The translations under genes were made by a program, and so were the position numbers. A DNA stretch of 59,432 nucleotides from a virus. The notes below the pieces were generated by a model. The model was not told where the DNA came from, ran no database searches, and saw nothing but the letters and a program-made list of their open reading frames with translations. Shown here in pieces: positions 33,703 to 59,432 of the stretch. The stretch's first letter is position 1. Every line of letters starts with the position of its first letter. Where the stretch lies: positions 1 through 59,432 of IMG/VR virus record IMGVR_UViG_3300014838_001974, one strand, 5' to 3'.

Positions 33703-35178
33703 CTAGTTGACCGGCTGGTCGAGACCGACCGTTTCGCCGCGAAGCGTTGCGATGAAATTCGCGTTCGCGTCCTCGCCGATCGTCTTTCGCTTGCGAAAGC
33801 CGCCCAGCAACTGCTGCAGTTCCGCTACGGTCTTCGAAACGCGGCGCATCTTTTCTTCGTCGTCGCTATCGGCGTTGTTGCCGCCAGGCTCCGCAACCGG
33901 ATCCGGCAGATTGCCGGCGGCCGGCCGTCCATTGTTGTCCGGCGCCGTTCCGGTCGCGTCGCTGCCAAGCGAGGCGAGATTGACCGGCGCGCGAACCTCA
34001 TCGCCACCCGGCACCGGCGGCAAGCGCTCGCCGGCGCGGAACTCGTTGGTTGCGATCAGGCCCGACAACGTACCCATCCGGCCGATGTTGTAGCGGGTCA
34101 GGATATCGGTGCGCAGCAGGCGGCTCTCGTCCAGTCCGATTTCGAGACCTTCGTCCGAAAGCCCGAGCTCATAGTCCAGCTTCTGTTCCCAGCGATCGAG
34201 ATCCGGCGCGATGGTGTCGTTGACGTATTCCTGGTTGACCTGAACCAGGTTGACGCCGCGGAGCTGCTCGAGGCCAAGCTTGAACGGCGGGATCCGATAG
34301 AAGCGGGCGATATCGCCGAGCTGAAACTGGCGCTGCTCGATGAAGGCGAGATCGGAGGAGGTCAGCTGCAACGCGGTCGCCTTCATGCCCTCCTCGAGGA
34401 CGACGGTGTTGCCGGTGTTCTGCAGACCGGCCTTCAATTCGTCCCACTGCTGCTTCAGGCGCTTTGCGGCCGCTTCCGAAACCGTCTTGCTCGATTCCAG
34501 CACGATGCTGGGCCGCGAACCGTTCGCCATCCAGCGCGCGGCCTGCTGCTCCAGCCCCATCGCGACGCCGATCGCATCGCGGGCCATGCCGATGGTCGAG
34601 ATCGCCACCAGCGCGTTGAACGACAACCCGCGCAGGTGAACGATGTCTTCCTGCGCGATGGTCGGCGGAAAATCCCGCAGCATCGCGATCTGCCAGAGCC
34701 CGATGCGGTTGACGTTGTAGAAAATCTCTCCGTTGACCGATTCCATCACCAGGACGGCGTCCGGGTTGATCGGGATCAGTTCGGTGATCTGGCCTTTGCT
34801 GTTGCGTATCTTCGCGGCGTAGGCGTTGCCGCGCAAGAGATAGGCGGCATTCATCTGCTCGGAAAATTCAAACCAGGTCTGCTGCCGGTTCGGCCGCTTC
34901 AGCAGCTTCGCCATCGGATGATTGGTGACGATCTGGCGGCTGCCATCATCTTTTGGCTTGTAGATTCGGGGCGTACAGCGCGCCATGTCCTGTGATCGAA
35001 TGGTCACGCAGGCATACAGCGCGCCCACCGACATCGCGGTGCCCTGGCTGATCAGCAGCCCGGTCGCCGAGGGCGTCGAACCCAGTGTCGGCAGGTAGCC
35101 CTGTGAGGGGAATGACGCCCCGCCGAGTGCCTTGAACACCGTGCCGATGCCGGCGCCGATTGACTTGGCAATGCCCAT
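33703..35178 (-). CDS. Portal protein, HK97 family
   Basis: A 491-residue portal. Landmarks: SVGALYACVTIRSQDMA, PMAKLLKRPNRQQTWFEF, NAYAAKIRN, LRGLSFNALV, the long clip/stem part, FYRIPPFKLGLEQL, and the C-terminal crown rich in D/E. The ATG overlaps the terminase stop by one base (TGATG). It forms the dodecameric DNA gate of the head. Confidence 0.9.
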   Translation of the reverse strand: MGIAKSIGAGIGTVFKALGGASFPSQGYLPTLGSTPSATGLLISQGTAMSVGALYACVTIRSQDMARCTPRIYKPKDDGSRQIVTNHPMAKLLKRPNRQQTWFEFSEQMNAAYLLRGNAYAAKIRNSKGQITELIPINPDAVLVMESVNGEIFYNVNRIGLWQIAMLRDFPPTIAQEDIVHLRGLSFNALVAISTIGMARDAIGVAMGLEQQAARWMANGSRPSIVLESSKTVSEAAAKRLKQQWDELKAGLQNTGNTVVLEEGMKATALQLTSSDLAFIEQRQFQLGDIARFYRIPPFKLGLEQLRGVNLVQVNQEYVNDTIAPDLDRWEQKLDYELGLSDEGLEIGLDESRLLRTDILTRYNIGRMGTLSGLIATNEFRAGERLPPVPGGDEVRAPVNLASLGSDATGTAPDNNGRPAAGNLPDPVAEPGGNNADSDDEEKMRRVSKTVAELQQLLGGFRKRKTIGEDANANFIATLRGETVGLDQPVN

Positions 35179-36953
35179 CAGACCACCAGGAAGCCGCGCT
35201 TCTCATAGACGGACGGTCCGCCATTCGACGGTTCCGGATTCAGCGACATCAGATGCGCGGCGTTGAACAGCGCCACCAAGGGGTCGATCTTTCCGAACCC
35301 GGCTTCCTCGCGCGCGATGCGCGAAGCGGTCGAGGTTAAGACCACTTGCGCATTGCCGACGCACCAGTTGAGCAGCTCGGAGCCGCAGTGAAGGAACGTC
35401 CGGTCGCCGAGCTTGCGCTCAAGGGTCTTGAAGGCCCCCATCAGGCCGATGCCCTGCCGGACCGCGTCGAGCGTCTCGGCGTCCTGCGTAATATCGATCT
35501 TCGCCAGCGCATCGACGATGCCGCCAATGCCGGCGGCGTCGACGCCAACCTGGGCGAGTAGTCCAAAGTCCCTTACCTTCACCACAAGATCGACGATGTA
35601 CTGGATATCATCGGGCAGCGGCGGATCGTAACCGTCCGGCAGCTTCGTCATATCCACGCCGGCGAACCCGTCGACGAAGCAGAATTCCGTCAGCGTGCCT
35701 TCCTTCTTGAAGCGATTGTAGTCCTCGGTGTTGGCCTTGCGCCGTTCGGCACCGATGTCCGAGATGAAGGCGTGCGCCCAGCCCAGCCAGCGTTTGGTCT
35801 TCTTCTCGCGCCCGATCACGCCGATGCCGAGCAGGTCGTCATTGCCGCCGCCGTCGAGGCCGATCGTGACGACTTCGCTGCGCTCCAGCAGCGTCTCCAG
35901 TGTCAACGTCGGGTCGATGCCGCGGTCCCAGACTTCGGCGCCGGCCCAGCCGTCGGCGCGCTGCGACATGCCGGCCTGGACGTTGAGAAACTTCGCATCC
36001 CAGTCGATGACAGAAGCTTTGCCGGCGCGCAGCGCCTCGGCGCGCTTACCCTTGAGAAAGACCGGATCGACCGACTTGCTCCAGTTCGGATTAGGGATGT
36101 ACCAGTTATCGAAGTTCTCATAGGCCTTCGACTTGATCATCTCCTCCGGAAATTCGTAGATGATCGGCAGACTCTGCGGGTCGACCAGCTTGCCGTCGCG
36201 GATATCGCGAAAATCCTTCAGCTTCTGGTCGAAGATACCGGATGGTGGCTTCGGCGACTGCGTCGTCAGATAAATCACGAAGCCTTCGGGTCGCGAATTC
36301 AGTCCTCCCTCCGCTTCGCGGATCATCGATTCCGCGTTGGCGCGCATGCCGAACAGCCAGAGTTCGTCGATCAAGAGGCCAATCGTCTTCTTGCCCGACA
36401 CCGTCTCGCTGTCGGCCGCGGCGACCTTGAGGAAAGCTCCCGTAGTGCGATGGGTGATCAGCCGCTGGCTGTCCTGGACGTGCAGCAGGCTGGTCAGCTT
36501 CTCGTCGGCGCGGATCATGTCGCGCGCCGGGAAAAACGAATTGTCCGCGACCTCCTTGGTCGGCGCCAGGATGTAGAACTCGCCGCTCTCGCGCCAATTG
36601 CGCATCAAGGCGGTCACCATGATGCCGGCGGCCAAGGTCGACTTGGTATTTTTCTTGCCAACGCAAAGGAAGAAATATCGGATCAGTCTGCGACCGAGAT
36701 TGGCCGCGCCGGATATACCCTCTGCGTCATAGGAACCGAACAGCGCGCGCGGTAGGTCATAAACCCACGGCAGGCAGCACTCTTCGATGGTGGGGCGTCC
36801 AGGCACATCGACGATGTGCAGGTCTCGGAAAATCGATAGCGCAGCTTCTGCCTCATCGGGAAAAAGCGCATCGAACGTCACCAGCGATTGCCGATTGACG
36901 ATGCGTTCTTTCCAGTCGGGGCATGCTGTCGACCAGCTCGGCACAAAATTCAT
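35178..36953 (-). CDS. Terminase large subunit
   Basis: A 591-residue DNA packaging motor. Walker A-like GKKNTKST at 99-106, Walker B GLLIDELW with Asp196-Glu197, and coupling motif TTQSPKPPSG in the ATPase half; the nuclease half contains GLDGGGNDD and VDAAGIGG acid residues. It is of the HK97/cos-type group often associated with an HNH partner. It overlaps both small subunit and portal genes. Confidence 0.9.
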   Translation of the reverse strand: MNFVPSWSTACPDWKERIVNRQSLVTFDALFPDEAEAALSIFRDLHIVDVPGRPTIEECCLPWVYDLPRALFGSYDAEGISGAANLGRRLIRYFFLCVGKKNTKSTLAAGIMVTALMRNWRESGEFYILAPTKEVADNSFFPARDMIRADEKLTSLLHVQDSQRLITHRTTGAFLKVAAADSETVSGKKTIGLLIDELWLFGMRANAESMIREAEGGLNSRPEGFVIYLTTQSPKPPSGIFDQKLKDFRDIRDGKLVDPQSLPIIYEFPEEMIKSKAYENFDNWYIPNPNWSKSVDPVFLKGKRAEALRAGKASVIDWDAKFLNVQAGMSQRADGWAGAEVWDRGIDPTLTLETLLERSEVVTIGLDGGGNDDLLGIGVIGREKKTKRWLGWAHAFISDIGAERRKANTEDYNRFKKEGTLTEFCFVDGFAGVDMTKLPDGYDPPLPDDIQYIVDLVVKVRDFGLLAQVGVDAAGIGGIVDALAKIDITQDAETLDAVRQGIGLMGAFKTLERKLGDRTFLHCGSELLNWCVGNAQVVLTSTASRIAREEAGFGKIDPLVALFNAAHLMSLNPEPSNGGPSVYEKRGFLVV

Positions 36954-37582
36954 TGCACCGTTCCGGTTCGCATCGAGCCGGGCGGCGGCGGCGGCGCATA
37001 TTTGCCGGCGGCAGCGTTCCGGGCGACGACGGCGGCCTCTTCCTTCTTGCCGAGTGCCTTCGGCTGCAGGCCTTCCGGCACCTTAGCGACCTGGACGGTC
37101 CCCACTCCCCGATCGAGCAGCGACTTCGCCGCCGAAACCCTCGCGCCCTCTGTTTCGCCGCGCGTGGCGATCGAGCCAAGTACCTCGATCGCCAGGTTGG
37201 CGTACTTCCTCGCCTCGACGCGGATCTCATCGCCGACGACAGCTGCTGGCCGGATGCCTCCGAACAGTGAGAGCTGCGAGAGGCCGCCGACGTCGACGGA
37301 CGGCTTGCCATAGCCGCGGTCGAGGATGGCGTTCGCGGCGTTCACCTTCGCGGTCTCGCTCTTGCCGTGGCAGAGCTGCTTCACCAGCGAGGCGATCGCG
37401 CCGCGCGAATACGCCTGAGCCGTCGACTCGATGTCGTCGGGCGCTGGAGCCGCCAGCGCCGCTTCCAGGTCGAGCGCCGGCAGTGCCGACGTGGCCTTGT
37501 GACCTTTCGGCTTCCGGCCGGCGCCAGGGCGGCTGCCGCCACGCTTCGACTTGGCCGGCGCCGCACTGGCGCTCTTGCTCAT
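36950..37582 (-). CDS. Terminase small subunit-like DNA-binding protein
   Basis: A 210-residue basic protein, N-terminus SKRGGSRPGAGRKPKGH as in the P27-like small terminases, then Ala-rich helical repeats (ARVSAAKSLLDRG, TAKVNAANAILDRGYGKP) that appear twice, suggesting two copies of a helical unit. It is coupled to the large subunit by ATGA. It recognises the packaging site. Confidence 0.75.
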   Translation of the reverse strand: MSKSASAAPAKSKRGGSRPGAGRKPKGHKATSALPALDLEAALAAPAPDDIESTAQAYSRGAIASLVKQLCHGKSETAKVNAANAILDRGYGKPSVDVGGLSQLSLFGGIRPAAVVGDEIRVEARKYANLAIEVLGSIATRGETEGARVSAAKSLLDRGVGTVQVAKVPEGLQPKALGKKEEAAVVARNAAAGKYAPPPPPGSMRTGTVQ

Positions 37583-37701: not shown

Positions 37702-38028
37702 CTACCCCCTTGCGCGGTCGAATGCTGCGGACGCTGTCTTCCTGGCATGGCAGAAGGAGCAACGAAGCATGATGTTCACGGGGTCGAGCAGCGCGCCACC
37801 ATCCTTGATCTCTTGGACATGGTCGCCAAAGATGCGGACACCGTCCCGTGGTTTTGAGGGATCGTGCTCAGTATCCTCGCAGCGCCGCCCCCGTTGCCTG
37901 ATGAGCTTTGCTATCAGGGCCTTCCATTCCTTCGACAGATAGAACGGATCGGCTCGCTTCTCGCGAACGACGACCGGGCCGCAATGTGTGGACGGTCGCA
38001 GCTTGCGACCGATGGTACGTAGTTTCAC
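37702..38028 (-). CDS. HNH endonuclease of the packaging module
   Basis: A 108-residue HNH nuclease. GRRCED, GDHVQEIKDGGALLDPVNIML and RCSFCHARKT supply the Asp-His, Asn and His plus two CxxC-type zinc ligands. GTG start at 38028 with AAGG about 7 bases upstream. HNH proteins beside terminase genes are needed for specific cos cleavage in HK97-like phages, the likely role here. Confidence 0.85.
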   Translation of the reverse strand: MKLRTIGRKLRPSTHCGPVVVREKRADPFYLSKEWKALIAKLIRQRGRRCEDTEHDPSKPRDGVRIFGDHVQEIKDGGALLDPVNIMLRCSFCHARKTASAAFDRARG

Positions 38029-38049
38029 CGGACGCCTTCGGGAAAGATC

Positions 38050-38077
38050 GGCTCGCCTGCATTGCCGCAGGCGAGCC
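38050..38077 (-). terminator. Stem-loop C in the nusG-like / late operon spacer
   Basis: GGCTCGCCTGC (38050-38060) and GCAGGCGAGCC (38067-38077), 11 bp perfect, hexaloop. On the minus strand it is followed by GATCTTTCC, a weak U-tract, and ends 21 bases before the HNH start. It could be a terminator or cover the ribosome-binding site. Confidence 0.5.
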
Positions 38078-38153
38078 AGTCTGGGGAGGAAACGCCCAAG
38101 ATGGGCAGCGGCTATTCAAAACGTTTGCCGCACACCCTACGCCAAACGAAAAC

Positions 38154-38181
38154 GCCGCCCGCAGCGTGAACTGCGGACGGC
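38154..38181 (-). terminator. Stem-loop B (terminator-like) in the nusG-like / late operon spacer
   Basis: On the minus strand GCCGTCCGCAG pairs with CTGCGGGCGGC (one G-U pair) over a hexaloop, followed by GTTTTCGTTT. A reasonable intrinsic terminator. Confidence 0.6.
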
Positions 38182-38223
38182 GCGGTATTGCCCTCGGGAA
38201 GATGCTGGTAACCTATCAAAGCA

Positions 38224-38249
38224 AAAGCCCCGCGCGACGGCGGGGCTTT
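38224..38249 (-). terminator. Stem-loop A: strong intrinsic terminator after the nusG-like gene
   Basis: AAAGCCCCGC and GCGGGGCTTT pair perfectly (10 bp, hexaloop CGTCGC on the minus strand), followed by TGCTTTG after a run of four T. It stands 52 bases after the antiterminator gene stop. The stem is symmetric, so it can also act on plus-strand transcripts. Confidence 0.75.
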
Positions 38250-38301
38250 GTGTTCCAATGCAGCAGCAGCCCGGGTGGTTAGGGGGTGGCTGCAGGGGTG
38301 G

Positions 38302-38979
38302 CTAGATCTTTTCGATGTCGGAAAGAGAAAGCACAACCCGTGTCGATCGTCCGAACAGATCGACCAGTAGATGAACGCGAACTGAGTCGTCAAGATCTTC
38401 CAGCGCTGCGTTTACCATTTGCTGGGAATTGAGCACCGGCAATTCCTCGATCGTGCCGGGAAACGAGGCAAACGGCCCGTTGGCGACGCGAACGCGCTCG
38501 CCTAGGATGTAGGGCATTTCGAACAGCCTGGTGACCGCTGGCACCGCGCCGGCGACCTCGAGGCCCTGAATTTCGGCAATCATCTTCCACGGCACTTCGA
38601 CCGGCAGGTTGTTGGCACAGACCAGCCCGCGAATGTGGGTCATCTTGAAGATCTCGCGCCAGCGCTCGCCGGCTTGCGAATAGTCGATGAAGGCATAGCC
38701 GGGAAAAAACGGTTCGATCTTTTCCCGCATCGGTTTGATCGGCGACTTGCGCTGCGCCTTCGAAAGCGTATTGCGCGGCACCGGCTTCAGGCTCCTGATC
38801 AGCGGCCGGTACAACTCGATCTGCAGCCGGCGCAGAAAATCGACGCCCGCGCCGTCAAGACCATCGCTGATCTGCACAAGATGCCAGATTTTCGCGGCTG
38901 GCGACGTCGAGGCACTTTTGGCTGTTTCGACATAACCGACCACCTGGCCTTTTTGGTAACTCTGGTCCCGCACGTTCAT
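38302..38979 (-). CDS. NusG-family processive antiterminator, phage type
   Basis: A 225-residue NusG paralogue; ATG at 38979 with GGAG 7 bases upstream. The N-terminal NGN domain ends with EPFFPGYAFIDY (89-100), the RNA polymerase-binding signature; the KOW linker is GERVRVANGPFASFPGTIEE (160-179), and the end VRVHLLVDLFGRSTRVVLSLSDIEKI is the standard NusG C-terminal strand pattern. It is a specialised NusG (RfaH/LoaP-like role) between the early and late operons and probably lets RNA polymerase pass the stem-loops downstream. The regulatory link is inferred from position. Confidence 0.85.
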   Translation of the reverse strand: MNVRDQSYQKGQVVGYVETAKSASTSPAAKIWHLVQISDGLDGAGVDFLRRLQIELYRPLIRSLKPVPRNTLSKAQRKSPIKPMREKIEPFFPGYAFIDYSQAGERWREIFKMTHIRGLVCANNLPVEVPWKMIAEIQGLEVAGAVPAVTRLFEMPYILGERVRVANGPFASFPGTIEELPVLNSQQMVNAALEDLDDSVRVHLLVDLFGRSTRVVLSLSDIEKI

Positions 38980-39323: not shown

Positions 39324-39776
39324 TTATTTTCCAGTTTCCCTCCCGATTTTGGGAGGGTCGGGCGGATCGATCGGAGGTGGAAGCGTGCGATCCAACTTTT
39401 GCCGTGCACATTGCTGGTTGAAAACAATGGCCGGATCGACGTCCGGGTCATCGTCGCTGCAAAAATGAGAAGTCATTTCGAGGATGATGATGTCGCGCAC
39501 CCGCGTCGCATAGTGAAACCATTCTCCGTGCGAGTGGTGCTGCTCTATGCGCTTGTGAATGGCTCTTTCCCTCCGCTCGTTGCCGTCCAGCTCTGCTATC
39601 AGCTCCAGCCGCGTAGGCGAGCCGACCTGAAGGGTCGCCAGGCGTTTCTGCGGCCGGAGCGCCACCCCGCATTTTACCAGGCCAGTGGTCTTGCAGAGGA
39701 TGAAATAGACTTTGACGCGAAGCTCTCGCCCGTCGGGCTTGAGCACTTGAACGCGTCGTTTTTCAGAACTCGACAT
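39324..39776 (-). CDS. GIY-YIG / T5orf172-like nuclease-family protein
   Basis: A 150-residue protein with VYFILCKTTGLVKCGVA (GIY and YIG strands), RLATLQVGSP, and a late ERAIHKRI with the expected Glu region, followed by HGEWFHYA. It resembles T5orf172/MUG113-type GIY-YIG domains, which have lost or altered catalysis in many cases. The ATG at 39776 has AAGGA 9 bases upstream, better than the ATG at 39785. The C-terminus LPPPIDPPDPPKIG is encoded by the G-run repeat of the adjacent spacer. Confidence 0.65.
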   Translation of the reverse strand: MSSSEKRRVQVLKPDGRELRVKVYFILCKTTGLVKCGVALRPQKRLATLQVGSPTRLELIAELDGNERRERAIHKRIEQHHSHGEWFHYATRVRDIIILEMTSHFCSDDDPDVDPAIVFNQQCARQKLDRTLPPPIDPPDPPKIGRETGK

Positions 39777-41997
39777 CGCCCACATCCTTCTCTGCAGCCT
39801 TCTTGCCGTTCTGGTCGATCTTCACCGGTTGACCGTCGCTGTCGACGAAGTCATGCACATACCGAATCAGCTTGATGTCAACGAACCACGTGACATCGGA
39901 ATGCTTGCGTTTATAACCGCGCTCTTCCATCGCGAGCGAGAAGCCTTTTTGCTTCCATGCCGTTTCGCCGGACGATTTGCACCAGGCTTCGAACACCTGA
40001 TAGAGCACGCTCGACTGCACGCGCTCGCCGGGACTGTCTTCGACGCACATCGACAGAAAGCGACCGAGCGGATCGGACGACGAGCGGTATTCGGCGGTCG
40101 CCTGCGTCACCGCTTCCGGCTCGATCAGCCCCTTGTCGCACCATAGGCGCAGGCCATCGAGCAGCCGGTTGAGAATACCGCTCGCCTCGGCGCGTAGCTT
40201 TTCCGGCAGGTGGATGTCGCGCTCTTCCTTGGGGATGGTGACATTGAACGGCACCTGCCGCAGCCGGCGCCAGATCCCTTCATCGGCGCCGGAAATGCCG
40301 GGGCGGTAATTGCCGGAGATCGTCATCTTGAACTGCGGATAGAACTTGAAGAAATCGCGGTTGAGGTGCCGCGCCTGGATCGGTTCGCCGCCAGTGATCA
40401 GCTTGAGCATGGCTTCCGCGAGCCGCGAATTCTTTTCCGGCTCCGAGGTCCGCAACATCCGAACGCCGGGCAGGATGGCGAGATCCGGCGTCGCTTGGCC
40501 GGCGTTGCGCGATTTACCGTGGTCGAGGAAGGTCTCGATCGGCACCGTCTCGCCATAGTCGCCGGCGACGTAGGACACCACGTCGACCAGCACCGATTTG
40601 CCGTTGGCACCCTTGCCGTAGAGAAACATCAGTTTCTGCTCGGTGACGTCGCCGGTCAGCGACAGGCCGAACCATTGATGCAGGAAAACCCGCATCGGCT
40701 CCAGCGGTTGCACGCGCCCGATGAACTTGTCGTAAAGCGGGCATTCGGCTTTCGGATCGTAATCGACCGGCGAAATCTTGGTGATGAGATCGCCCGGATC
40801 GTGCGTCTGGAAGCTGACGTAATCGCCATCGCTCTTCCGCGCCACCACCAGCGTGCCGTTATTAACGTTGATCTTCATCTTGTCGGCATCGAGCTTTTCG
40901 ACGCCGATCGCGAAATACGGCGCGCCGCGCTTGGACAGCGCGCCGAGCTTGTTGAGCGCTTCCGAGGCGCGGCCCCAGCTCGCGATCTTGTCGGAATACA
41001 TCGTCTTGTTGCCGTCGCGATCGGTCTTGAACACAAAATCGCGCGCGCCGGTCGGGTGTGAGATCGCATCCTTGTCGCCGCTTTCGCGAACCTCGTCCGC
41101 CTCGTCCTGAATCGCGCGCACCGTGTCATGTTCGGCGATCTTGACCAGATCGTCGGCGCCGTCGCGGCTCCAGCGCTTGCCGTCCCAGGCGAGCCAGCCC
41201 AGCGCCGGGCACCACAGCAACTTATCGAGATAGCGCTCACGAAACCGTTCGGCATTGCCGAGGTCGGTGAGCGGGAAAAAAGCCAGCCGCATGTTGCGAC
41301 GTCGTTCGGTTTCCACAGCGCGTGGCGGCTTGCCTTTTCCATTGGCGCCATTTGCTGACGACGTCGCGCTCGCTCCGTCGGCTCGGGCGCTCCCCCCTGC
41401 ACCCCCCGCAGCAGAAGCATCCGGCGACAATGCTCCCGTTTGGGAGGGTATGTCCGATTCGCCTCCCTCGTTGGGGGGCGCGGGGGCGGCGACAAAAAAG
41501 GACGACGACAATGGCGCCGAAACATCCGCGGCCTGGTCGACAACGGAGGAAGGAACATGGTCGGCCGCTTCACGCGGCCGCCTTTCTGAATGAGGTGCAC
41601 GAAGCGTCGCAAGAGCGACGCCGCGCACCTCCGATAGATCGCGAGGCTGTTTCTTGCCGAGCTTCACGCCGTCCGCGATCGTCTTTTTGACCGCCTTCAA
41701 ACCGTCGTCGCGGATCAGGCCGCACGCGCCGGCGCCCTCCACCAGCATCTCCCTGGCAAAGCCCTCGTTCAGCGCGCCGGCGGCCGCGAGCTGGCCCAGG
41801 CGCTGCGCGGCGCCCGACAGCACCAGGCCCCTCGCCTCATCGGTGGCCTCGCGCACAGCTAAGATCGCCGCGTCGAGCTCGGCGAGGCCGAGCCGGCGGA
41901 TCGCCTCGGCGCGAGCTGCCGGATCCTCCGGCGGAGCGTCGACGAAGATTGGCGCCGCGTCGACGATCGCTAGGATGGCATTGGCGCCGGCGTTCAT
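39763..41997 (-). CDS. D5-type primase-helicase (SF3 / P4-like)
   Basis: A 744-residue replication protein; the ATG at 41997 overlaps the Dam-gene stop (ATGA). Residues about 1-235 are a low-complexity regulatory part; 240-440 match the D5_N region (WLAWDGKRW, GTLVVARKS), and the SF3 helicase core has Walker A GKGANGKS near 461-468, LRTSEPEKNSRL and a sensor in ISGNYRPGISGADEGIWRR. The C-terminus is a winged-helix domain. Works with the CHC2 primase two genes upstream. Confidence 0.9.
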   Translation of the reverse strand: MNAGANAILAIVDAAPIFVDAPPEDPAARAEAIRRLGLAELDAAILAVREATDEARGLVLSGAAQRLGQLAAAGALNEGFAREMLVEGAGACGLIRDDGLKAVKKTIADGVKLGKKQPRDLSEVRGVALATLRAPHSERRPREAADHVPSSVVDQAADVSAPLSSSFFVAAPAPPNEGGESDIPSQTGALSPDASAAGGAGGSARADGASATSSANGANGKGKPPRAVETERRRNMRLAFFPLTDLGNAERFRERYLDKLLWCPALGWLAWDGKRWSRDGADDLVKIAEHDTVRAIQDEADEVRESGDKDAISHPTGARDFVFKTDRDGNKTMYSDKIASWGRASEALNKLGALSKRGAPYFAIGVEKLDADKMKINVNNGTLVVARKSDGDYVSFQTHDPGDLITKISPVDYDPKAECPLYDKFIGRVQPLEPMRVFLHQWFGLSLTGDVTEQKLMFLYGKGANGKSVLVDVVSYVAGDYGETVPIETFLDHGKSRNAGQATPDLAILPGVRMLRTSEPEKNSRLAEAMLKLITGGEPIQARHLNRDFFKFYPQFKMTISGNYRPGISGADEGIWRRLRQVPFNVTIPKEERDIHLPEKLRAEASGILNRLLDGLRLWCDKGLIEPEAVTQATAEYRSSSDPLGRFLSMCVEDSPGERVQSSVLYQVFEAWCKSSGETAWKQKGFSLAMEERGYKRKHSDVTWFVDIKLIRYVHDFVDSDGQPVKIDQNGKKAAEKDVGDVEF

Positions 41998-45418: not shown

Positions 45419-47278
45419 TCACCGGCGGCTTGGACCTGGATGGCGTTTCGCGGCCGATTGCGCCGGCGTTGGCACTTTCATCAATTTGTCGGCCGCATCG
45501 ATCGCCGCCCGCGCTGCGCTGGGCTTGTAATGCTCCGAGCCGGGCCCGGCGTAATGCACAGTGCGCAATTCCTTCGGCAACCAGCCGGTCGGGCCGAGGT
45601 TGGCGAGCGCGAACTTCCAGATCTCGGCCTTGGTCTTACCGGCGACCTTGCGGGCTTCGTCCGGGTTGATTGCTTCCGCGATCGCCTTCAGCACGATGCC
45701 CTTCGGCACCGAGGAAAAATAATTCTCGGCATCGAAGCGTTTGGCCAGCGCCGTGTTGAACACGCCGGCATTGAGCGCCTGCCGGATGCTCGGCAGTTTG
45801 GTTCGCACCGCGTCGGGCATGTGAAACGGCCGATCGGGAATGATCTGCGCGCAAATGGTCCTGGCCAGCGTCTCGAACAGTACGGAACGGGCGAGCTCGG
45901 GCTCGCCCGCGATCGCATCGCGGGTTGCCGCCGCCAGCTGCGCCTCCAAACGGTCCCTCAGCGCGTTGGAAAGCGTGGTCGACTCGGGTGCCGGCTTGCC
46001 GGAAGCCGCGGCGGCTTTCTTGACCGCCTTCGCGGTCTCGCGCTTCACCGCTTTCGTTTCCTCCACAGCGGCCTGTTTCTGCGCCGGCTTGACGCGGCCA
46101 TATTCGACATCAAGAAATCCGTCGCCGTCGATGCTGACGAAGCAGCCGGCCTTCGCCATCAACTTCGGTGGATAGCTGCGCAGTTCGATCGCCTCAACGA
46201 GATCCCAATAAGCCAGATAGGCCGCCTGTTGCGCGGTCGTCAGTTCGGCGAACGAATCAGCACCATAATGGCCGTCGCCCCGATGGGTACCGACGTTGAA
46301 GACGGCGTTGAGTTCGGCCAGCTTCCGTTGCTCTTCCTCCGTGGCGGGCGGTTCGACCTTCAATCTGCCGTAGTCGTACTGATTGCGGACGCTGTCGTGA
46401 ATTGAAGCAAAGCTCCAGCCCTGCTCTTTCAGGCGTTTGCACTCGGCCTCCAGCCGTTCGATAGCCAGCTTCTTGGCAAGCTTGGCATCGGATACCTTGT
46501 GATCGGTCCCGAACAGATCAAGCGTCACCTTGCCACCGGCATTGACATAAACCTCGATCCCGACGAATTCGACCAGCGTACCGGAATTGTCCTGGCCGAT
46601 CTTGAGGGCTTCCTTGACTTCGTCACCGTCGACGTCGATCAGATCGCAGCCGCGGCCCGTCTCGGCGTCATTCCGGAGATCGTCGAGCACCTTGTCCTGG
46701 GTCTTGTGGTCCGGCGCCAGGGTGAAGGCCTTGGCGGCTTCCGTCTTGATCTCGCCCTTGCGCCAGGCATCGCGTATATTCGCCGACAGATGCCCGAGCG
46801 CCAGCGCCTGCTCGACTTCGCGCTCGCTCATGCCATACTGCCGCGCGATCTCTTCCACCGTCTTGTCGTGGCGATCGCGCAGCCGTGCGAACGCCTCATA
46901 CTGGTCGACCGGATGCAACTGCCGCGCGGTGACCGCCGTGGTCAGCGAATCCTCAAACGCGCCGGCCTCGTCGACGTCGCGCAGCGTGCAGCGGATCGGC
47001 TGCGGACTGCTCTCGCCGTAGATCAGATGGAAGGCGGCCAGGCGCCGGTTGCCGTTGCTCACCGAATAGACGTCGCAAGTACCTGTCCAGTCCTCCGGCA
47101 GCGGCAATCCATTGTCCTCGCCGAAATACTTGATCACGAGGTTTTCGATCTGGCCGCGGGCGTGAAGATTCGCCGCCAGTTCGGGGATGCTTTCCTGCCG
47201 GCCGGTGACGCGGGCGTTGATGCCGGCGCCGTCTTCCTGGCCAAACTTCAGTCGATTGAGCGGAACTTCAAAATCCAT
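45419..47278 (-). CDS. ParB/RepB-family protein with HTH (C-terminus shifted in frame)
   Basis: A 619-residue ParB-like protein. Residues 20-110 form the ParB N-terminal fold (IPELAANLHARGQIENL, YSVSNGNRRLAAFHL); 120-175 the KTVEEIARQYGMSEREVEQAL helix-turn-helix; the centre is Lys/Ala-rich (AVKRETAKAVKKAAAA). The annotated frame stops at 45419, but the -1 frame continues to a TGA at 45357-45359 as SRSKPPVKQAAAIEKPAKK..., a typical ParB/histone-like tail. This suggests a 1-base change near the 3' end. It may regulate replication or transcription rather than partition. Confidence 0.7.
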   Translation of the reverse strand: MDFEVPLNRLKFGQEDGAGINARVTGRQESIPELAANLHARGQIENLVIKYFGEDNGLPLPEDWTGTCDVYSVSNGNRRLAAFHLIYGESSPQPIRCTLRDVDEAGAFEDSLTTAVTARQLHPVDQYEAFARLRDRHDKTVEEIARQYGMSEREVEQALALGHLSANIRDAWRKGEIKTEAAKAFTLAPDHKTQDKVLDDLRNDAETGRGCDLIDVDGDEVKEALKIGQDNSGTLVEFVGIEVYVNAGGKVTLDLFGTDHKVSDAKLAKKLAIERLEAECKRLKEQGWSFASIHDSVRNQYDYGRLKVEPPATEEEQRKLAELNAVFNVGTHRGDGHYGADSFAELTTAQQAAYLAYWDLVEAIELRSYPPKLMAKAGCFVSIDGDGFLDVEYGRVKPAQKQAAVEETKAVKRETAKAVKKAAAASGKPAPESTTLSNALRDRLEAQLAAATRDAIAGEPELARSVLFETLARTICAQIIPDRPFHMPDAVRTKLPSIRQALNAGVFNTALAKRFDAENYFSSVPKGIVLKAIAEAINPDEARKVAGKTKAEIWKFALANLGPTGWLPKELRTVHYAGPGSEHYKPSAARAAIDAADKLMKVPTPAQSAAKRHPGPSRR

Positions 47279-47308
47279 TGTGGGTCTCCATCGTTGAAAA
47301 AAGCAAGG

Positions 47309-47522
47309 GCCGTCGCTGTCGCGCCGGCTAGTCAAGCTGCAGGTGGTCACTGCGGCCGCGCGCCCCGATGTTCTCGCTCGAGTTGTCGGGCCAGATGCCG
47401 AGGTTCGCGAAGCGCGAGCCCGCGCCCTCGCCGCTCCACCACGAACCACCGAAGATGGACGCGCGCGGCGTGTCGGGATCGCCGTCATGGCCCCATACCC
47501 AGAGATTGCCGGTGGCCTGCAT
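47309..47522 (-). repeat. DGR variable-region block VR1 with 3' conserved segment
   Basis: A 214-base block, 92 percent identical to 52981-53194. The 15 substitutions between 47370 and 47456 all have A in one copy on the coding strand. The 65 coding bases before and the 22 bases after the stop codon are identical, the latter fitting an initiation-of-mutagenic-homing segment. Confidence 0.85.
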
Positions 47523-48236
47523 CGCGCCGTCCTGGCTGGTGCGCGCGGCATCGAGGCCGGTTATCCGCGGATCGCCAGCGCGAGAGGTTTTTTCGGTGAC
47601 GCCGAAGGCAAAGGCCCGGAATTCGTCCGAGCTCATCGGCTGCTTGCCGTGATGCGCCAGCACGGCGACGGCGGTCGGATAATCCAGCTTCCGGTACTTC
47701 TTGCCGGTTGCGGGATTGACCGGCGGCGCGTCGCCGTCCGCGATCGTCGCGCCGAATTGGCTGGTGCCATTGATGTGGTGGTCGACGCCAAGCAGGTAGA
47801 TGTCGCCCCAGAATTTAAGGCCGAATCGTTCGCACAGCGCCATGCCGCGCGGATCCGCCGCGGGGCGATACTCCAGATCCCACAACGATCGGGGATTGAT
47901 CGCCGGAATTTCGTCGCCGCCGACGCGCGCCGGTGCATTGCTGCCCGGCGCAAAATGGAAACCGGCAAAATAGATGTCGTGGGCCAGAACCGGACCGAGC
48001 AGTTTAACGGCTTGAGGCGCGCGGTCGAAAGTGCACATTACGCCGTAGTCGCAACCGGTTTCGAGGCCGACGTCGGGCATGATGATGGCGGTATCGGCGC
48101 CGAAGGACACGCCGTCGAAGATCGTGCCGGCCTTGACGGCCGCAGTTTTGGGACCGGTTAGCTTGATCGCGGGCGAATGCGGATCCAGCTTGGTCAGCAA
48201 TTTTGGCGAGATATCGGTTGTGGCATGCTTGTTCAT
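47328..48236 (-). CDS. Mtd-like variable protein 1 (C-type lectin fold, DGR target)
   Basis: A 302-residue homologue of the major tropism determinant Mtd of Bordetella phage BPP-1. Shared phrases include KAGTI, GFHFAPGSNA, DPRGMAL, FWGDIYLLGV, NGTSQFG...TIADG, then TGNLWVWG and the variable C-terminus IFGGSW...GSR...IGARGRSDHLQ. Variable residues are 261, 268, 270, 271, 276, 278, 281, 284, 285, 288 and 289. Compared with Mtd it lacks the N-terminal beta-prism. ATG 48236 has GGAG 8 bases upstream; a second ATG at 48242 is too close to it. It sits in the early operon beside a ParB gene, not with the tail genes. Confidence 0.9.
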   Translation of the reverse strand: MNKHATTDISPKLLTKLDPHSPAIKLTGPKTAAVKAGTIFDGVSFGADTAIIMPDVGLETGCDYGVMCTFDRAPQAVKLLGPVLAHDIYFAGFHFAPGSNAPARVGGDEIPAINPRSLWDLEYRPAADPRGMALCERFGLKFWGDIYLLGVDHHINGTSQFGATIADGDAPPVNPATGKKYRKLDYPTAVAVLAHHGKQPMSSDEFRAFAFGVTEKTSRAGDPRITGLDAARTSQDGAMQATGNLWVWGHDGDPDTPRASIFGGSWWSGEGAGSRFANLGIWPDNSSENIGARGRSDHLQLD

Positions 48237-48238
48237 GG

Positions 48239-48661
48239 TCATTCTCCAGGTTGAGGTTGTGTCCCGTTAAGTTCCTTGACGCGCAAAATCAGATATTCCC
48301 GCACCGCCGCCGGCGGAAAATCCGGATGGCCCCACGCCTTGCAGCGAATGCCGTATTCGAGAAAAAGCGTCCGGCCTTCCTCGTAACGGTACTGCGCGAG
48401 CTCGAACGATCGCGCATCGCCCACCGTGCTGCTCTCGATCAGATCGGGCCCGTCGAACAACGCCGGCATCGACCAGCCCAGCCGCTTCAGGGCGCCTGCC
48501 GGCGTCTCCGCAAAGATCCGCTGCATGATGTGGTCGTGGTTCATCGGCAGGCCGGCGCGCGCATCGAGGAAGCCGAGCCGAAACGCCGGATGCATGACGC
48601 ATTGCCAGAGATCGCCGAGCGTCATGGCTTTCTGGCTGACGGGGCGGTCGATAATCGGCAT
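48239..48661 (-). CDS. Hypothetical early protein
   Basis: A 140-residue protein upstream of Mtd-like gene 1, whose stop lies just before the Mtd ATG. It has LGDLWQCVMHPAFRLGFLDARAG and ELAQYRYEEGRTLFLEYG, an alpha-helical pattern seen in other small phage proteins. Because of the tight coupling it may be a partner or chaperone of the Mtd-like protein, which is a guess. Confidence 0.5.
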   Translation of the reverse strand: MPIIDRPVSQKAMTLGDLWQCVMHPAFRLGFLDARAGLPMNHDHIMQRIFAETPAGALKRLGWSMPALFDGPDLIESSTVGDARSFELAQYRYEEGRTLFLEYGIRCKAWGHPDFPPAAVREYLILRVKELNGTQPQPGE

Positions 48662-51221: not shown

Positions 51222-51436
51222 GCGATATTCTCGATCCGTCGCCGCTCGCGGCTGACCTGCAGCGCCGCCCAGGCCGCGCTTTCGGGCACCACCAGCCTGA
51301 TGGATATTTCCTTGGTGTCGAAACCGGCGGCGAACATGTCGCCGGCGATGATGATCAAGGCCTCGTCGCACCGCGCCTCGCTGATGCTCATGCGCGCGGC
51401 ACGCTTCGGAGGTCCGAATGTGCTGTCCGGTCTCAC
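51218..51436 (-). CDS. Small HTH-like early protein
   Basis: A 72-residue protein with GTG 51436 overlapping the ParB-like stop (GTGA). The AGFDTKEISIRLVVPESAAWAAL segment looks like a helix-turn-helix of a sigma-like or small regulator. Confidence 0.5.
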   Translation of the reverse strand: MRPDSTFGPPKRAARMSISEARCDEALIIIAGDMFAAGFDTKEISIRLVVPESAAWAALQVSRERRRIENIA

Positions 51437-52620
51437 GGTGCGATCTCCACGATCTGCCGTCCGATGCCCTTGAGGCTTCGGACCTCGAGTCCGATCTTCT
51501 TGAGCGATGCGAGCTCGTGCACCAGTCCGTCGAGATACTCGCCTGCATTCGACGGCCGCGCGTTCCAGAGCTTTGCGATCAGGAAGTCATCGCCGATCGG
51601 ATTCGGTTTTGCCTTGGAAAGCAGCCCGACCAGCAGCGCGGCGCGGGGCGTCACGCGGACCTGCCGTCCATTGAAGGTGACCACGTCGCGGCCGATGGAG
51701 AAGATGCCGGGGCCGGCTGCTGGCGCGGAGGCCGCCGGCGGCTGCCTGGTCGAAGCCGTCTTTAACGGGGCCGCGGGTCTCTCCTCTGGCGGCAGCGGCG
51801 CCTGCGATAAATGCGCGGCAACGAGACCGCCCAGGATCGCTGCCACCTTTGCTCCGGTATCGATCGACCTGGCGCGCGCGGCGTTGAACTGCGCGCTGAA
51901 GTCGAAACTCTGCATCTGGAAAAGCAACAGCTTTCGATCGGCGCGGGTTTGGCGCGCGTCTTTCAGCGCCAGGCACAGTCCCTCCACGATCGCGGCCCGG
52001 ATCATGCCGACATTGCCCTTGCGGGTCATGGTGATGCAGGCAAGTGCCGCGATCAGCACGTCACGGCCGAATCTTTCGAGCGCGCCCTGCAGCATCGCAA
52101 CCGCGAGCGTCTCGCCCGGCTTCATCTTGTTGGCCGGTACCGGATAGCGGCAGATCGTCACCCCGGCCTCGAGGCAGACCTCGGTCAGGGCGACGGCCGT
52201 CTTGTTGCCGGCAGCCAGGCGCGCGGCGTGAAGCTGCAGCGGCGACATCGCGGTGACGTTGGCGTTGATCGCAACGAACGCGTCGGCCTGCTCGGCATCG
52301 TCGGCCGCGATGATCACGCACGGCACGGACTCGAAGCCGCGGAGCGCGGCCGCGGTGGCGCGGTGCTGGCCGTCGACGATCGCGAACAGGCCCTCGCCGA
52401 TCGGCGCGACGATCAAAGGGCCGAACTTGGCCCAGCGGAACGCCGGCGCGATCGCCAGGATGTTATCAGCGCCGCGGCGGCCGATGTCCCGCTGGTATCG
52501 CGGATCGATGCGAAGCCGCGATATCTTGAGCCATTGCAATTCGGGCCGCTCGCCGGGCTCTGAGGCCGCTCCGGCATAGCGCGGCCTAAGCGGAGCCGGA
52601 TCGATGGCGCGCAGGGTCAT
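51433..52620 (-). CDS. ParB/sulfiredoxin-fold protein with C-terminal HTH
   Basis: A 395-residue protein. FAIVDGQHRATAAAL is the DGQHR-type ParB/Srx nucleotide-binding motif; AFVAINANVTAMSPLQ follows. After a Pro/Ala linker (residues 270-300) the C-terminal 90 residues form a winged-helix domain (RAALLVGLLSKAKPN...SLKKIGLEVRSLKG). Similar proteins act in DNA maintenance or gene regulation in temperate phages. Confidence 0.7.
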   Translation of the reverse strand: MTLRAIDPAPLRPRYAGAASEPGERPELQWLKISRLRIDPRYQRDIGRRGADNILAIAPAFRWAKFGPLIVAPIGEGLFAIVDGQHRATAAALRGFESVPCVIIAADDAEQADAFVAINANVTAMSPLQLHAARLAAGNKTAVALTEVCLEAGVTICRYPVPANKMKPGETLAVAMLQGALERFGRDVLIAALACITMTRKGNVGMIRAAIVEGLCLALKDARQTRADRKLLLFQMQSFDFSAQFNAARARSIDTGAKVAAILGGLVAAHLSQAPLPPEERPAAPLKTASTRQPPAASAPAAGPGIFSIGRDVVTFNGRQVRVTPRAALLVGLLSKAKPNPIGDDFLIAKLWNARPSNAGEYLDGLVHELASLKKIGLEVRSLKGIGRQIVEIAP

Positions 52621-52980: not shown

Positions 52981-53194
52981 GCCGTCGCTGTCGCGCCGGC
53001 TATTCAGGCTGCAGGTGGTCACTGCGGCCGCGCGCCCCGATGCACCCGCTCGAGACGCCGGGCCAGTAGCCGAGGTCCGCGTAGCGCGAGCCCGCGTTCC
53101 CGCCGTTCCACCACGAACCACCGAAGAAGGACGCGCGCGGCGTGTCGGGATCGCCGTCATGGCCCCATACCCAGAGATTGCCGGTGGCCTGCAT
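52981..53194 (-). repeat. DGR variable-region block VR2 with 3' conserved segment
   Basis: Second copy of the 214-base block. Variable codons on the coding strand in this copy include TTC, AAC, GGG, AAC, TAC, GAC, TAC, GGC, GTC, GGG and TGC where VR1 has ATC, AGC, GAG, GGC, TTC, AAC, ATC, GAC, AAC, GAG and AAC. Two more differences lie just before the stop codon. Confidence 0.85.
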
Positions 53195-53908
53195 AAGGCC
53201 GAATTTGCTGGTGCGCGGCGCATCGAGGCCGATGGTTTCCGGATCGTCCTTGGCCGAGCTGCGCTCAGTGACGCCGAATGCCGCGGCAAAGAATTCCTCG
53301 GCGCCGAGCAGCCCTTTGCCGTGGGCGGCCAGCGCGGCGACGGCGGTCTCGTAATCGAATCGCTTGTATTTCTTGCCCGAAGCATCGAGCGGCCGATTGT
53401 CGCCGTCGGCGATGGCGACGCCGAATTGGCTGGTGCCGTCCTTGGCGCAGTTGGCGCCGGTCAGATAGATGTCGCACCAGAATTTCGAGCCGAACAGCTC
53501 GACCAGCGCCATGCCGCGCGGATCCGGACAGGCCGGGCGGAAATTCAGGTCCCAGCACGAAAACGGATTGATCGTCGGAGTATCATCGCCGCCGGCGCGC
53601 GCGGCGGCGTTGCCGCCCGGCGCGAAATGAAAGCCGCCGATCTGAAGGTCGAGCGGCGTTGCGGTGATCAGCTTGATCGCCTGCGGCACGAACTCATGGC
53701 CCAGCATAACGCCGTAATCGGAGCCCGGCTCGAGTCCGGCCGCCGGCAGCCGCACGTCGACGTCGGCCGTAAAGCGATGCTCGCCGAGCCGGGTGCCGGC
53801 CTTCACGATCACGGTGCCGCGGCCGGTCACCTTCAGCGCCGGCGAGCCGGGATCCGTCTTCACCAGGAGCGAATTCGCTCCCTTGATCTTCGTGGCATGC
53901 TTGTTCAT
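53000..53908 (-). CDS. Mtd-like variable protein 2 (C-type lectin fold, DGR target)
   Basis: A 302-residue paralogue of the protein at 47328-48236, about half identical outside the last 63 codons and nearly identical within them except at 11 variable positions. It has the same Mtd landmarks (GFHFAPGGNAAARAGG, DPRGMAL, CDIYLTG, TIADG-like VAIADGD, TGNLWVWG, FGGSWW, IGARGRSDHLQ). GGAG lies 9 bases before the ATG. This copy neighbours the Avd remnant and so is probably the original DGR partner. Confidence 0.9.
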   Translation of the reverse strand: MNKHATKIKGANSLLVKTDPGSPALKVTGRGTVIVKAGTRLGEHRFTADVDVRLPAAGLEPGSDYGVMLGHEFVPQAIKLITATPLDLQIGGFHFAPGGNAAARAGGDDTPTINPFSCWDLNFRPACPDPRGMALVELFGSKFWCDIYLTGANCAKDGTSQFGVAIADGDNRPLDASGKKYKRFDYETAVAALAAHGKGLLGAEEFFAAAFGVTERSSAKDDPETIGLDAPRTSKFGLMQATGNLWVWGHDGDPDTPRASFFGGSWWNGGNAGSRYADLGYWPGVSSGCIGARGRSDHLQPE

Positions 53909-56057: not shown

Positions 56058-56069
56058 TGCCTTTTGCAT
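56057..56069. promoter_or_regulatory. Operator 2 of the lysogeny switch
   Basis: ATGCCTTTTGCAT: one perfect half-site (TTGCAT) and one diverged half; centre 22 bases from operator 3. Confidence 0.6.
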
Positions 56070-56078
56070 GATGATCCA

Positions 56079-56091
56079 ATGCAAATTGCAT
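56079..56091. promoter_or_regulatory. Operator 3 of the lysogeny switch
   Basis: ATGCAAATTGCAT: perfect 6+1+6 palindrome, ending 3 bases before the CI-like ATG. It is the best match to the consensus and would give autoregulation of the repressor. Confidence 0.7.
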
Positions 56092-56094
56092 TTT

Positions 56095-56715
56095 ATGTCT
56101 GAGATGCACGAAAGGTTAACGACCGCGCGCAAGGAAGCCGGCTATCCGACGGCAAGGGCCGCCGCCGAGGCACTGGGCGTCAAGGAGCCGACCTATATCG
56201 GGCACGAAAACGGGCAGCGCGGCTTCAAGCGCGATTCAGCCGATCGCTACGCCCGCAAATTCGGTATCTCCCTGGAATGGCTGCTGACCGGCAAGGGCGC
56301 CAAGGAACGGCGCCCGGAACGCATCGATCGGGAGGCCGCCAAATATGTCGACCTGGTCGGCTATGTCGGCGCCGGTGCCGAGACCCACTTCTTCAACAAT
56401 GACGGCCCGCTCGACGAGGTCCCCGCGCCGGCCGGATCGACCGACACGACGGTCGCGGTGGAGATCCGTGGCGACAGCCTCGGATCGTTCTTCGATCGCT
56501 GGCTGGTGTTTTATGACGATGTGCGCCGGCCGGTGGCAACCGAATTGATCAACAAGCTTTGCGTGGTCGGCCTCGAGGACGGCCGCATCCTGATCAAGAA
56601 AATCCAGCGCAGCAAGGCGCGTGGCCTTTTTCATCTGCTGTCACAGACTGAAGATCCGATCCTGGATGTTCAAATTGCCTGGGCGGCGCGGGTCAAGAAC
56701 ATGGTGCCGCGATGA
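56095..56715 (+). CDS. CI-like repressor with S24 (LexA-type) autoprotease domain
   Basis: A 206-residue repressor: N-terminal HTH (residues 4-45, YPTARAAAEALGVKEPTYIGHENG), linker, then S24 peptidase region with cleavage-type AG at 93-94 (GYVGAGA), catalytic Ser128 (EIRGDSLGS) and Lys168 or Lys169 (ILIKKI). This predicts RecA-triggered self-cleavage and SOS induction. ATG 56095 has no visible Shine-Dalgarno and follows operator 3 by 3 bases, so it may be translated from a leaderless mRNA as lambda cI is; ATG 56104 is an alternative. Confidence 0.85.
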   Translation: MSEMHERLTTARKEAGYPTARAAAEALGVKEPTYIGHENGQRGFKRDSADRYARKFGISLEWLLTGKGAKERRPERIDREAAKYVDLVGYVGAGAETHFFNNDGPLDEVPAPAGSTDTTVAVEIRGDSLGSFFDRWLVFYDDVRRPVATELINKLCVVGLEDGRILIKKIQRSKARGLFHLLSQTEDPILDVQIAWAARVKNMVPR

Positions 56716-58174: not shown

Positions 58175-58572
58175 ACCGCCTGACCCTGGAAGAGGCCGCC
58201 GCCGAGCTGCGCAAGACCCCGCGCTGGCTGCGGGACTGGATCCGCGCCCATCCCGCGGACAAGGCCGGGGAGCCCTATTATACGCCGGCGGGACGGGATA
58301 AGCTTTTTCATCAGACCGACCTTGTCCGCATCGAAAGCGCCCTACGGAAGGAAGTCCGGTGCCGCTCCAGCTCAGGCCGCCCCGTCCCGGCAAAACGCCG
58401 AACTTCGAAATCCGGGGCACCCACCTCGGATTCCGCGTGGAAACTAGCAGCGGAACTCACAAACGATCCCTCGCTCTCAAGCAACGCCGAAAGATCGAGG
58501 ACTGCATCGAAGAGCACGGCGCCTGGCCGGCGCCCGAAGCTGAGCCTCGTTCAGGGCAACCGACCTTCCTGA
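58171..58572 (+). CDS. Excisionase-like winged-helix protein
   Basis: A 133-residue protein. The LTLEEAAAELRKTPRWLRDWIRAHP start and YYTPAGRDKLFHQTDLVRIESAL are the helix-turn-helix and wing of phage excisionases. The C-terminal part (AKRRTSKSGAPTSDSAW) is also typical of Rhizobiales excisionases, although it overlaps the integrase gene in another frame by 214 bases. Directs excision with the integrase. Confidence 0.75.
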   Translation: MNRLTLEEAAAELRKTPRWLRDWIRAHPADKAGEPYYTPAGRDKLFHQTDLVRIESALRKEVRCRSSSGRPVPAKRRTSKSGAPTSDSAWKLAAELTNDPSLSSNAERSRTASKSTAPGRRPKLSLVQGNRPS

Positions 58573-59432
58573 GCGCCGCCGTCGCCTACATGCAGGCCGG
58601 CGGCCGCCGCAAATATCTTGCGGCCTTGATCAGGCGGTTCGGCGAAACGCCGCTGGCCGCGATGGACCAGGCGGCGATCGACGACGCGGCGACAGCACTT
58701 TACCCGCAGGTCTCGCCCGCCACGCGGAACTGCTACGTCTACACGCCGGTTTCAGCCGTGCTGCACCATGCGCTGGGCGACAAGTGCCCCGTCATCCACC
58801 GTCCCAAGGGCGCCAAGGGCAACGAAAAAACCGACTTCATGTGGCCGGCCGATGCGTTTGCCGTCATCGACGAGGCCGACAAGATCGACCCGGAATTCGG
58901 GTTGTATCTGCTCACTTTGCTCTCTACCGGCATCCGCAAGAGCGAGGGCCTGAAGCTCCTGCCCGAGGATACCCAGCCGGACGAGAGCGCGGCCTGGCTG
59001 CGCAATTCCAAGAACGGCGAGCCGCGCATGCTCAAGCTGCGGCAGGACATCCTGGAGCGCCTGCGGGCGCATCTGGAGGGCCATGCCGGAGAGCGGCTAT
59101 TCCGCTTCAAGGACGGCGGCCATTTCAAGCATCTGCTGCTACGCGCCACCATGGCGGTCTGCGGCGTGCCGTGTCCGGTGCGGCGCCCGACCGGATGGAA
59201 GAAGCCGCCGTTCCGGCTCGGCTTCGTCGGCTTCCACACCTTCCGCCACACCTGGGCGACGTGGATGCGCCGCTACGGCGGCGCCGACGTCCAGGGCCTG
59301 GCGGCGACCAAGAACTGGCGCGATCCGCGCAGCGCGCAGCGCTATGCGCATGTGGTGTCGCGCGACGAGTGGGACCGTGTGGACAGCCTGCCCGGCATGG
59401 GGAACAGACGGGGGAAAACAGTCAATGAATGA
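58359..59432 (+). CDS. int: Tyrosine integrase
   Basis: A 357-residue tyrosine recombinase, complete (GTG start at 58359, TGA at the window end). Catalytic Arg193 (TGIRKSEG), His293-x-x-Arg296 (HTFRHTWATW) and nucleophile Tyr329 (QRYAHVV) are all in place; the second His/Trp position is Trp320. N-terminal arm-binding part (TPNFEIRGTHLGFRVETS) fits phage integrases. It lies at the right end of the prophage; attP or attR should lie just beyond the window. Confidence 0.9.
   Translation: MPLQLRPPRPGKTPNFEIRGTHLGFRVETSSGTHKRSLALKQRRKIEDCIEEHGAWPAPEAEPRSGQPTFLSAAVAYMQAGGRRKYLAALIRRFGETPLAAMDQAAIDDAATALYPQVSPATRNCYVYTPVSAVLHHALGDKCPVIHRPKGAKGNEKTDFMWPADAFAVIDEADKIDPEFGLYLLTLLSTGIRKSEGLKLLPEDTQPDESAAWLRNSKNGEPRMLKLRQDILERLRAHLEGHAGERLFRFKDGGHFKHLLLRATMAVCGVPCPVRRPTGWKKPPFRLGFVGFHTFRHTWATWMRRYGGADVQGLAATKNWRDPRSAQRYAHVVSRDEWDRVDSLPGMGNRRGKTVNE

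Follow-up and report, generated by a model that had tools for sequence, protein, structure and literature searches.

In phage lambda, the gene of the late regulator Q is immediately followed by a terminated leader and the late operon (the Q/qut/pR'/tR' arrangement), and the 6S RNA is the short leader RNA of this late arrangement. RfaH, LoaP, TaA and UpxY are NusG-family proteins; LoaP, TaA and UpxY are encoded beside long operons, their presumed targets for antitermination (PMC7819879, PMC12691694). Some housekeeping NusG proteins promote pausing or termination, e.g. that of B. subtilis (PMC8060035). Phage Xp10 encodes a 7-kDa protein, p7, that carries host RNA polymerase past intrinsic terminators (PMC4513864, PMC6624301). 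Among small RNAs, SisA of Caulobacter, from the suhB/MmgR family, represses many messages through a shared anti-Shine-Dalgarno 10-mer (PMC12559287).

The locus described here has something of each. Like RfaH, LoaP, TaA and UpxY, it encodes a NusG-family protein, but it occurs in phages before the virion genes and is followed by tagged terminators and a small RNA; it has no ops element specific to the NusG loci, and its protein stays under the equivalog cut-off of every named paralogue. As in lambda, the putative late-regulator gene immediately precedes a leader with terminators and the late operon; unlike lambda, the protein has the NusG fold and is not Q, no pR'-like promoter is recognised and the leader is a small RNA of a host family. 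Its protein would share with Xp10 p7 the ability to take host RNA polymerase past intrinsic terminators, although p7 is not a NusG paralogue beside tagged terminators. The small RNA resembles suhB, MmgR and SisA–D (alpha-r8, RF00519) in its anti-Shine-Dalgarno core, 5' GCCC hairpin and terminator, and differs from them in lacking the chromosomal promoter boxes and in abutting a terminator–TAGG unit. Nearly all the phage NusG proteins match PHROG_6386 'transcription antiterminator', a family name that is silent on cis elements and RNA, and in the open-access literature we found no mention of phage copies of alpha-r8 RNAs in PMC1273637 or PMC12559287.

By its gene content, the window (the whole 59,432-nt stretch that was analysed) is a temperate phage, and the nusG region is its early-to-late junction module. 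Early genes, among them ParB-like, methyltransferase, primase and helicase genes, run leftward to nusG. The genes 3' of nusG on the minus strand are, in order, HNH, terS-like, TerL, portal, protease, capsid and tail, and these late genes continue on the same strand as nusG down to about 1 kb (about 37 kb), as a preliminary description of this DNA had noted. The features that define this order are as follows.

58359–59432, plus strand: integrase of the window phage.
56068–56712, plus strand: repressor of the window phage.
38302–38979, minus strand: phage NusG paralogue, the last gene before the late operon (PF02357, PHROG_6386, TIGR00922).
37702–38028, minus strand: HNH endonuclease, the first late gene (PF01844, PHROG_589).
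36950–37582, minus strand: probable terminase small subunit, terS-like (PHROG_2538, partial match).
35178–36953, minus strand: terminase large subunit, TerL (PHROG_9, E 1.6e-110).
33703–35178, minus strand: portal protein (PF04860).

Other genes of the window deserve mention in their own right. An O-acetyltransferase gene (1–1053, plus strand) lies where the late operon ends, in the opposite orientation, and is a possible lysogenic-conversion gene. A T5orf172/MUG113-type gene (39324–39785, minus strand) is positioned between the primase-helicase gene and nusG; at loci L002–L004 a different gene abuts or overlaps the nusG start directly. The early region also contains two PHROG_11262 genes (47331–48242 and 53003–53908), labelled tail protein, each near a ParB-like gene (45422–47551 and 51436–52620); this is a duplicated pair whose label is doubtful. 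A close relative, L004, has a 75-bit Rfam Phage_DGR match at positions 4163–4315, the RNA of a diversity-generating retroelement.

The presence of a NusG-type protein was anticipated from the reading frame and is confirmed by profile and model comparisons. The window protein passes the gathering cut-off of PF02357 (E 3.7e-5) and matches PHROG_6386 (2e-12); its TIGR00922 match (5e-15) falls short of the equivalog cut-off. It reaches 40.7 bits with the RfaH profile TIGR01955 and 22.6 bits with the LoaP profile, under the respective equivalog cut-offs of 144.5 and 125. The AlphaFold2 model (mean pLDDT 84) is confident over most of its length, and its best PDB matches are NusG and RfaH, including NusG C-terminal domains. 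The NGN domain is present, and PF02357 is matched by 33 of 35 relatives at E<=0.01; PHROG_6386 is matched by 34 of the 35 paralogues. The C-terminal region of the window model is beta-rich, matches NusG CTD structures and is predicted in one state only (beta); in RfaH this domain changes from an alpha-helical hairpin to a beta-barrel. The KOW profile has matches in just 6/35 members, the domain being missing from several, and in one subgroup (L044, L103, L007, L076, L088, L112) the NGN domain is kept and a lysine/arginine-rich tail replaces the KOW domain. The three nearest relatives are 64–72% identical to the window protein; the other paralogues share 13–40% identity with it, the most diverged 13–20%.

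Three strong stem-loops follow the gene on the minus strand (about 38249–38050), where the preliminary description had placed them, and the 276-nt hairpin stretch folds 4.7 sd better than its shuffles, none of 200 being as good. That description had also assigned U-rich runs to two of the three. These prove to be hairpins 1 and 2, each with a broken T-tract behind it; hairpin 3 is followed merely by GATCTTTC. The three are unequal as terminators, however, and here the earlier account needs revision. The window contains no hairpin/T-tract/TAGGKT combination other than those of hairpins 1 and 2, which are thus two copies of one unit, while hairpin 3 closes an alpha-r8 small RNA that had been missed. 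The elements between nusG and the HNH gene are the following.

38250–38301, minus strand: conserved GCCACCCC-type triplet block ending in CCGGGCTGCTGCTGCATTGGAA, limited to the window and its three closest relatives (alignment of four phages).
38212–38251, minus strand: unit 1, with a GC hairpin (about 38251–38226), a T-tract and TAGGTT (TAGG at 38215–38212).
38134–38184, minus strand: unit 2, with a GC hairpin (38184–38153), a T-tract and TAGGGT (38139–38134), abutting the 5' end of the small RNA.
38108–38131, minus strand: 5' hairpin of the small RNA (GCGGC...GCCGC), absent from the Rfam model and covarying across 41 loci.
38036–38113, minus strand: suhB/MmgR (alpha-r8) small RNA (RF00519).

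The small RNA scores 43.1 bits against RF00519 (gathering score 41). Its 16-base core, TTGGGCGTTTCCTCCC, occupies 38099–38084, and the RNA has the anti-Shine-Dalgarno core TTTCCTCCC. Hairpin 3 (38077–38050) is the terminator stem at its 3' end, with a weak T-tract, and a plain attenuator was rejected for this hairpin because it lies inside the RF00519 RNA. Matches to Rfam P6, rnk_pseudo and asX2 are weak, below gathering, and were set aside. All three nearest NusG relatives have an RF00519 RNA (46.8–62.9 bits) beginning ~140–260 nt past the NusG stop. Across 41 loci, 91.6% of the cells of the 5' hairpin are paired (83.9% in shuffles) and double changes number 18 (5.7 in shuffles); none of 500 shuffles is as high in pairing and double changes, and slid controls are lower. 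Chromosomal Bradyrhizobium alpha-r8 copies share this extra 5' hairpin (with a GTGCGGTAGCGC start) without the TAGG unit, and they have promoter-like boxes of their own (TTGCRY, 17 nt, CATATT). None was recognised for the phage copies by the window scan or by the position profile of NusG-linked sites. In phages, the RNA seems to be without the chromosomal promoter and tied to late transcription.

The preliminary description had set its proposal against a late promoter between the stem-loops and the HNH gene. A weak scan of the minus strand over 35–45 kb, which includes this interval, found no sigma-70-like site; the position profile contains no -35 element, and a sigma-70 late promoter was accordingly rejected.

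Across the module, nusG is followed by one to a few terminator-like hairpins with a T-tract and, in most members, by a complete alpha-r8 small RNA that has a terminator of its own. Aligned NusG-linked sites contain a T-tract and then CATAGG[G/T]TGTGCGG directly before the RNA, and TAGG[G/T]T sits 8–20 nt past the stem on almost all hairpins between nusG and the RNA. The strict motif is found at 36 of 44 NusG-linked sites, compared with 2/58 NusG-less sites and 1.3% of random 65-mers. Hairpin and motif statistics were computed by simple scripts, in which a terminator counts as tagged if TAGG, TAAGG or CATGG occurs within 30 nt. By this definition 45 of the 49 terminators between nusG and the RNA core are tagged; the figures are only 8/161 for other parts of these loci, 38/399 for loci without NusG and 65/737 for bacterial controls. 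Several loci, the window among them, have two tagged units. The pairing of gene and terminators that the preliminary description proposed to look for in related phages recurs across the 44 NusG-linked loci, and on these counts the hairpin/T-tract/TAGGKT unit is a feature specific to NusG loci.

The main rival to a role of this unit in read-through is that TAGGKT is the -10 element of a late promoter. The arrangement would then resemble lambda pR', with a short leader that ends at the small-RNA terminator unless NusG antiterminates into the late genes. The motif is located directly before the RNA 5' end, a position that matches lambda Q–pR'–tR', and its T, A and last T, the most conserved -10 positions, are present at 95, 100 and 86%. 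The position profile, however, contains neither a -35 nor a proper extended -10; the covarying 5' hairpin begins 2–3 nt past TAGGKT, so that a start 7 nt downstream would cut the hairpin; the first TAGG unit is distant from the RNA in several loci; and the -10 box of the chromosomal copies sits 6 nt further upstream. We regard this promoter as unlikely.

Alternatively, the units could be NusG-dependent pause or termination sites at which the phage NusG boosts termination and insulates the late operon, the late genes being started otherwise. The B. subtilis NusG does stimulate pausing and intrinsic termination (PMC8060035), and a hairpin and a T-rich non-template strand are kept in nearly all loci. 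On the other side, a terminator enhancer made early would shut off the late genes when they are needed, and the known NusG paralogues that adjoin long operons antiterminate (PMC7819879, PMC12691694). A termination-enhancing NusG fits the gene position less well and is in our estimation quite improbable.

A resemblance to the RfaH ops element was also considered. The sequence GCGGTAGCG, the centre of that element (PMC5995543), is frequent in the 5' hairpin of NusG-linked leaders and absent from the window. Chromosomal Bradyrhizobium alpha-r8 copies without NusG have the same 5' hairpin; the likeness is therefore a property of the small RNA, and recruitment through an RfaH-like ops (GGCGGTAGCGTG) was rejected.

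First scans of genomes and viral contigs by close alignment found no wider relatives. Viral contigs were scanned for the exact 16-base core, giving at least 119 stretches, and an iterated NusG profile was run over the reading frames of these core-positive stretches. About a third of them encode a NusG paralogue just upstream. With loci found later included, the order nusG, tagged terminator(s), alpha-r8 RNA is present in at least 44 distinct viral or prophage loci, the RNA core lying 112–922 nt downstream of the NusG reading frame. These locus counts are lower bounds biased to good matches, since the scan took exact cores only, and sequences of one clade are not independent in them. Among the NusG-linked loci with enough sequence (n=37), the longest downstream plus-strand frame is TerL in nearly all, from at least three PHROG families, whereas in NusG-less suhB loci it is rarely TerL. 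The proposal of a dedicated NusG at the early/late junction, in the place of lambda Q, is supported by these comparisons. The variety of NusG and terminase families speaks against descent from one recent lineage.

Many viral contigs (L005–L123) also have the suhB/alpha-r8 core away from the NusG module, e.g. immediately behind capsid-like genes or behind other genes, and some NusG-less viral copies are preceded by sigma-70-like boxes (L091, L020). The RNA was rejected as a constant mark of the late junction, because NusG-less copies seldom precede terminase and often follow, for example, capsid. Phages may be among the chief carriers of this RNA family.

A reverse search with NusG queries, blind to the RNA, gave 27 viral loci. 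The queries came from RNA-positive loci, and contigs sharing sequence with the seeds were therefore removed before counting. Of the 15 NusG loci that remained, 9 have the RNA core downstream and 14 a TAGG-type motif behind a T-tract. Six of the 27 protein-first loci are without a canonical suhB core, which indicates that the small RNA is not obligatory; five of these six retain a TAGG-type element. Diverged suhB-like elements also occur after NusG genes in L190 (5519–5740) and L195 (1200–1320), with TAAGG, a GC hairpin, CGTTTCCTC and a terminator and without an exact core; they possibly belong to a related small RNA family.

A pattern built from the RNA element alone (TAGGKTGTGCGG ... TTGGGCGTTTCCTCC) has four sites in 150 Bradyrhizobium-family genomes, one of them a known seed. 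The other three are prophage sites, and all three encode a NusG 128–229 nt upstream (E 2e-27 to 3e-48). In similar genomes, two suhB copies that lack the motif have no NusG upstream. DNA similarity to the RNA region also identified the whole module in ppBeUSDA76-1 and ppBdUSDA122-1, spontaneously produced Bradyrhizobium phages. Their NusG proteins are annotated as 'ABC transporter substrate-binding protein' and 'hypothetical protein', respectively, the former (L213:2998–3675, OP596613.1, WAX24340.1) a probable misannotation; the main text of the paper on these phages does not mention NusG, antitermination or small RNAs (PMC10127595).

These searches bear on a further reading, in which the elements are an uncoupled, co-inherited cassette made up of the usual terminators at operon ends, a small RNA carried as a moron and a NusG with a role elsewhere (e.g. 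as a general anti-Rho factor). Such a cassette would fit the presence of suhB RNAs in NusG-less phages and at sites other than the late junction, as well as the protein-first loci that have the gene without the RNA. It accounts poorly for the same order and TAGG-tagged terminators across NusG proteins diverged to 13–20% identity and at least three terminase families, or for a TAGG that tracks NusG even at RNA-less loci, and we consider it improbable.

Sequence comparison establishes the gene order, the tagged terminators and the RNA, and shows that they are conserved together even though the NusG proteins have diverged greatly. For these findings, the best explanation, to which we give about an even chance, is that polymerase reads through the terminators into the late genes in a NusG-dependent way and that a small RNA mimicking those of the host is released in the process. 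We infer that NusG is an antiterminator from three points: specialised paralogues beside long operons antiterminate, the gene occupies the place of Q, and no sigma-70 promoter is recognisable. Transcripts of the early operon would end at the tagged terminators until NusG builds up. NusG would then engage RNA polymerase at the hairpin/T-tract/TAGG unit and render it processive, and the polymerase with NusG would run through every further terminator, that of the small RNA included, and transcribe ~37 kb of late genes. With its own promoter apparently lost, the phage small RNA would be made solely with late transcription; by analogy with SisA it probably acts in trans, its anti-Shine-Dalgarno core being directed at host (or early phage) messages. 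In many loci the sole tagged terminator is upstream of its own TAGG, and loading at TAGG cannot rescue polymerase from a preceding terminator; read-through of this kind thus assumes either leaky passage or loading further upstream.

Phage NusG, tagged terminators and, usually, small RNA together look like a late-gene switch, so far little described, of dozens of phages and prophages of bradyrhizobia. More tentatively, they may represent a type of phage late switch that is widespread: a dedicated NusG paralogue would read the hairpin/T-tract/TAGGKT unit and thereby license late transcription, coupled to the release of a host-mimicking alpha-r8 RNA that simultaneously reprograms translation in the host. 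If true, a NusG-type late switch would join lambda Q and Xp10 p7. The TAGG cis element is short enough for mutation and is present in phages that laboratory Bradyrhizobium strains produce spontaneously, and the pairing of nusG and RNA makes the aiming of NusG paralogues and the targets of phage alpha-r8 RNAs directly testable. In Alphaproteobacteria, alpha-r8 RNAs exist in multiple copies and have spread laterally, for which carriage by phages would be a concrete reason.
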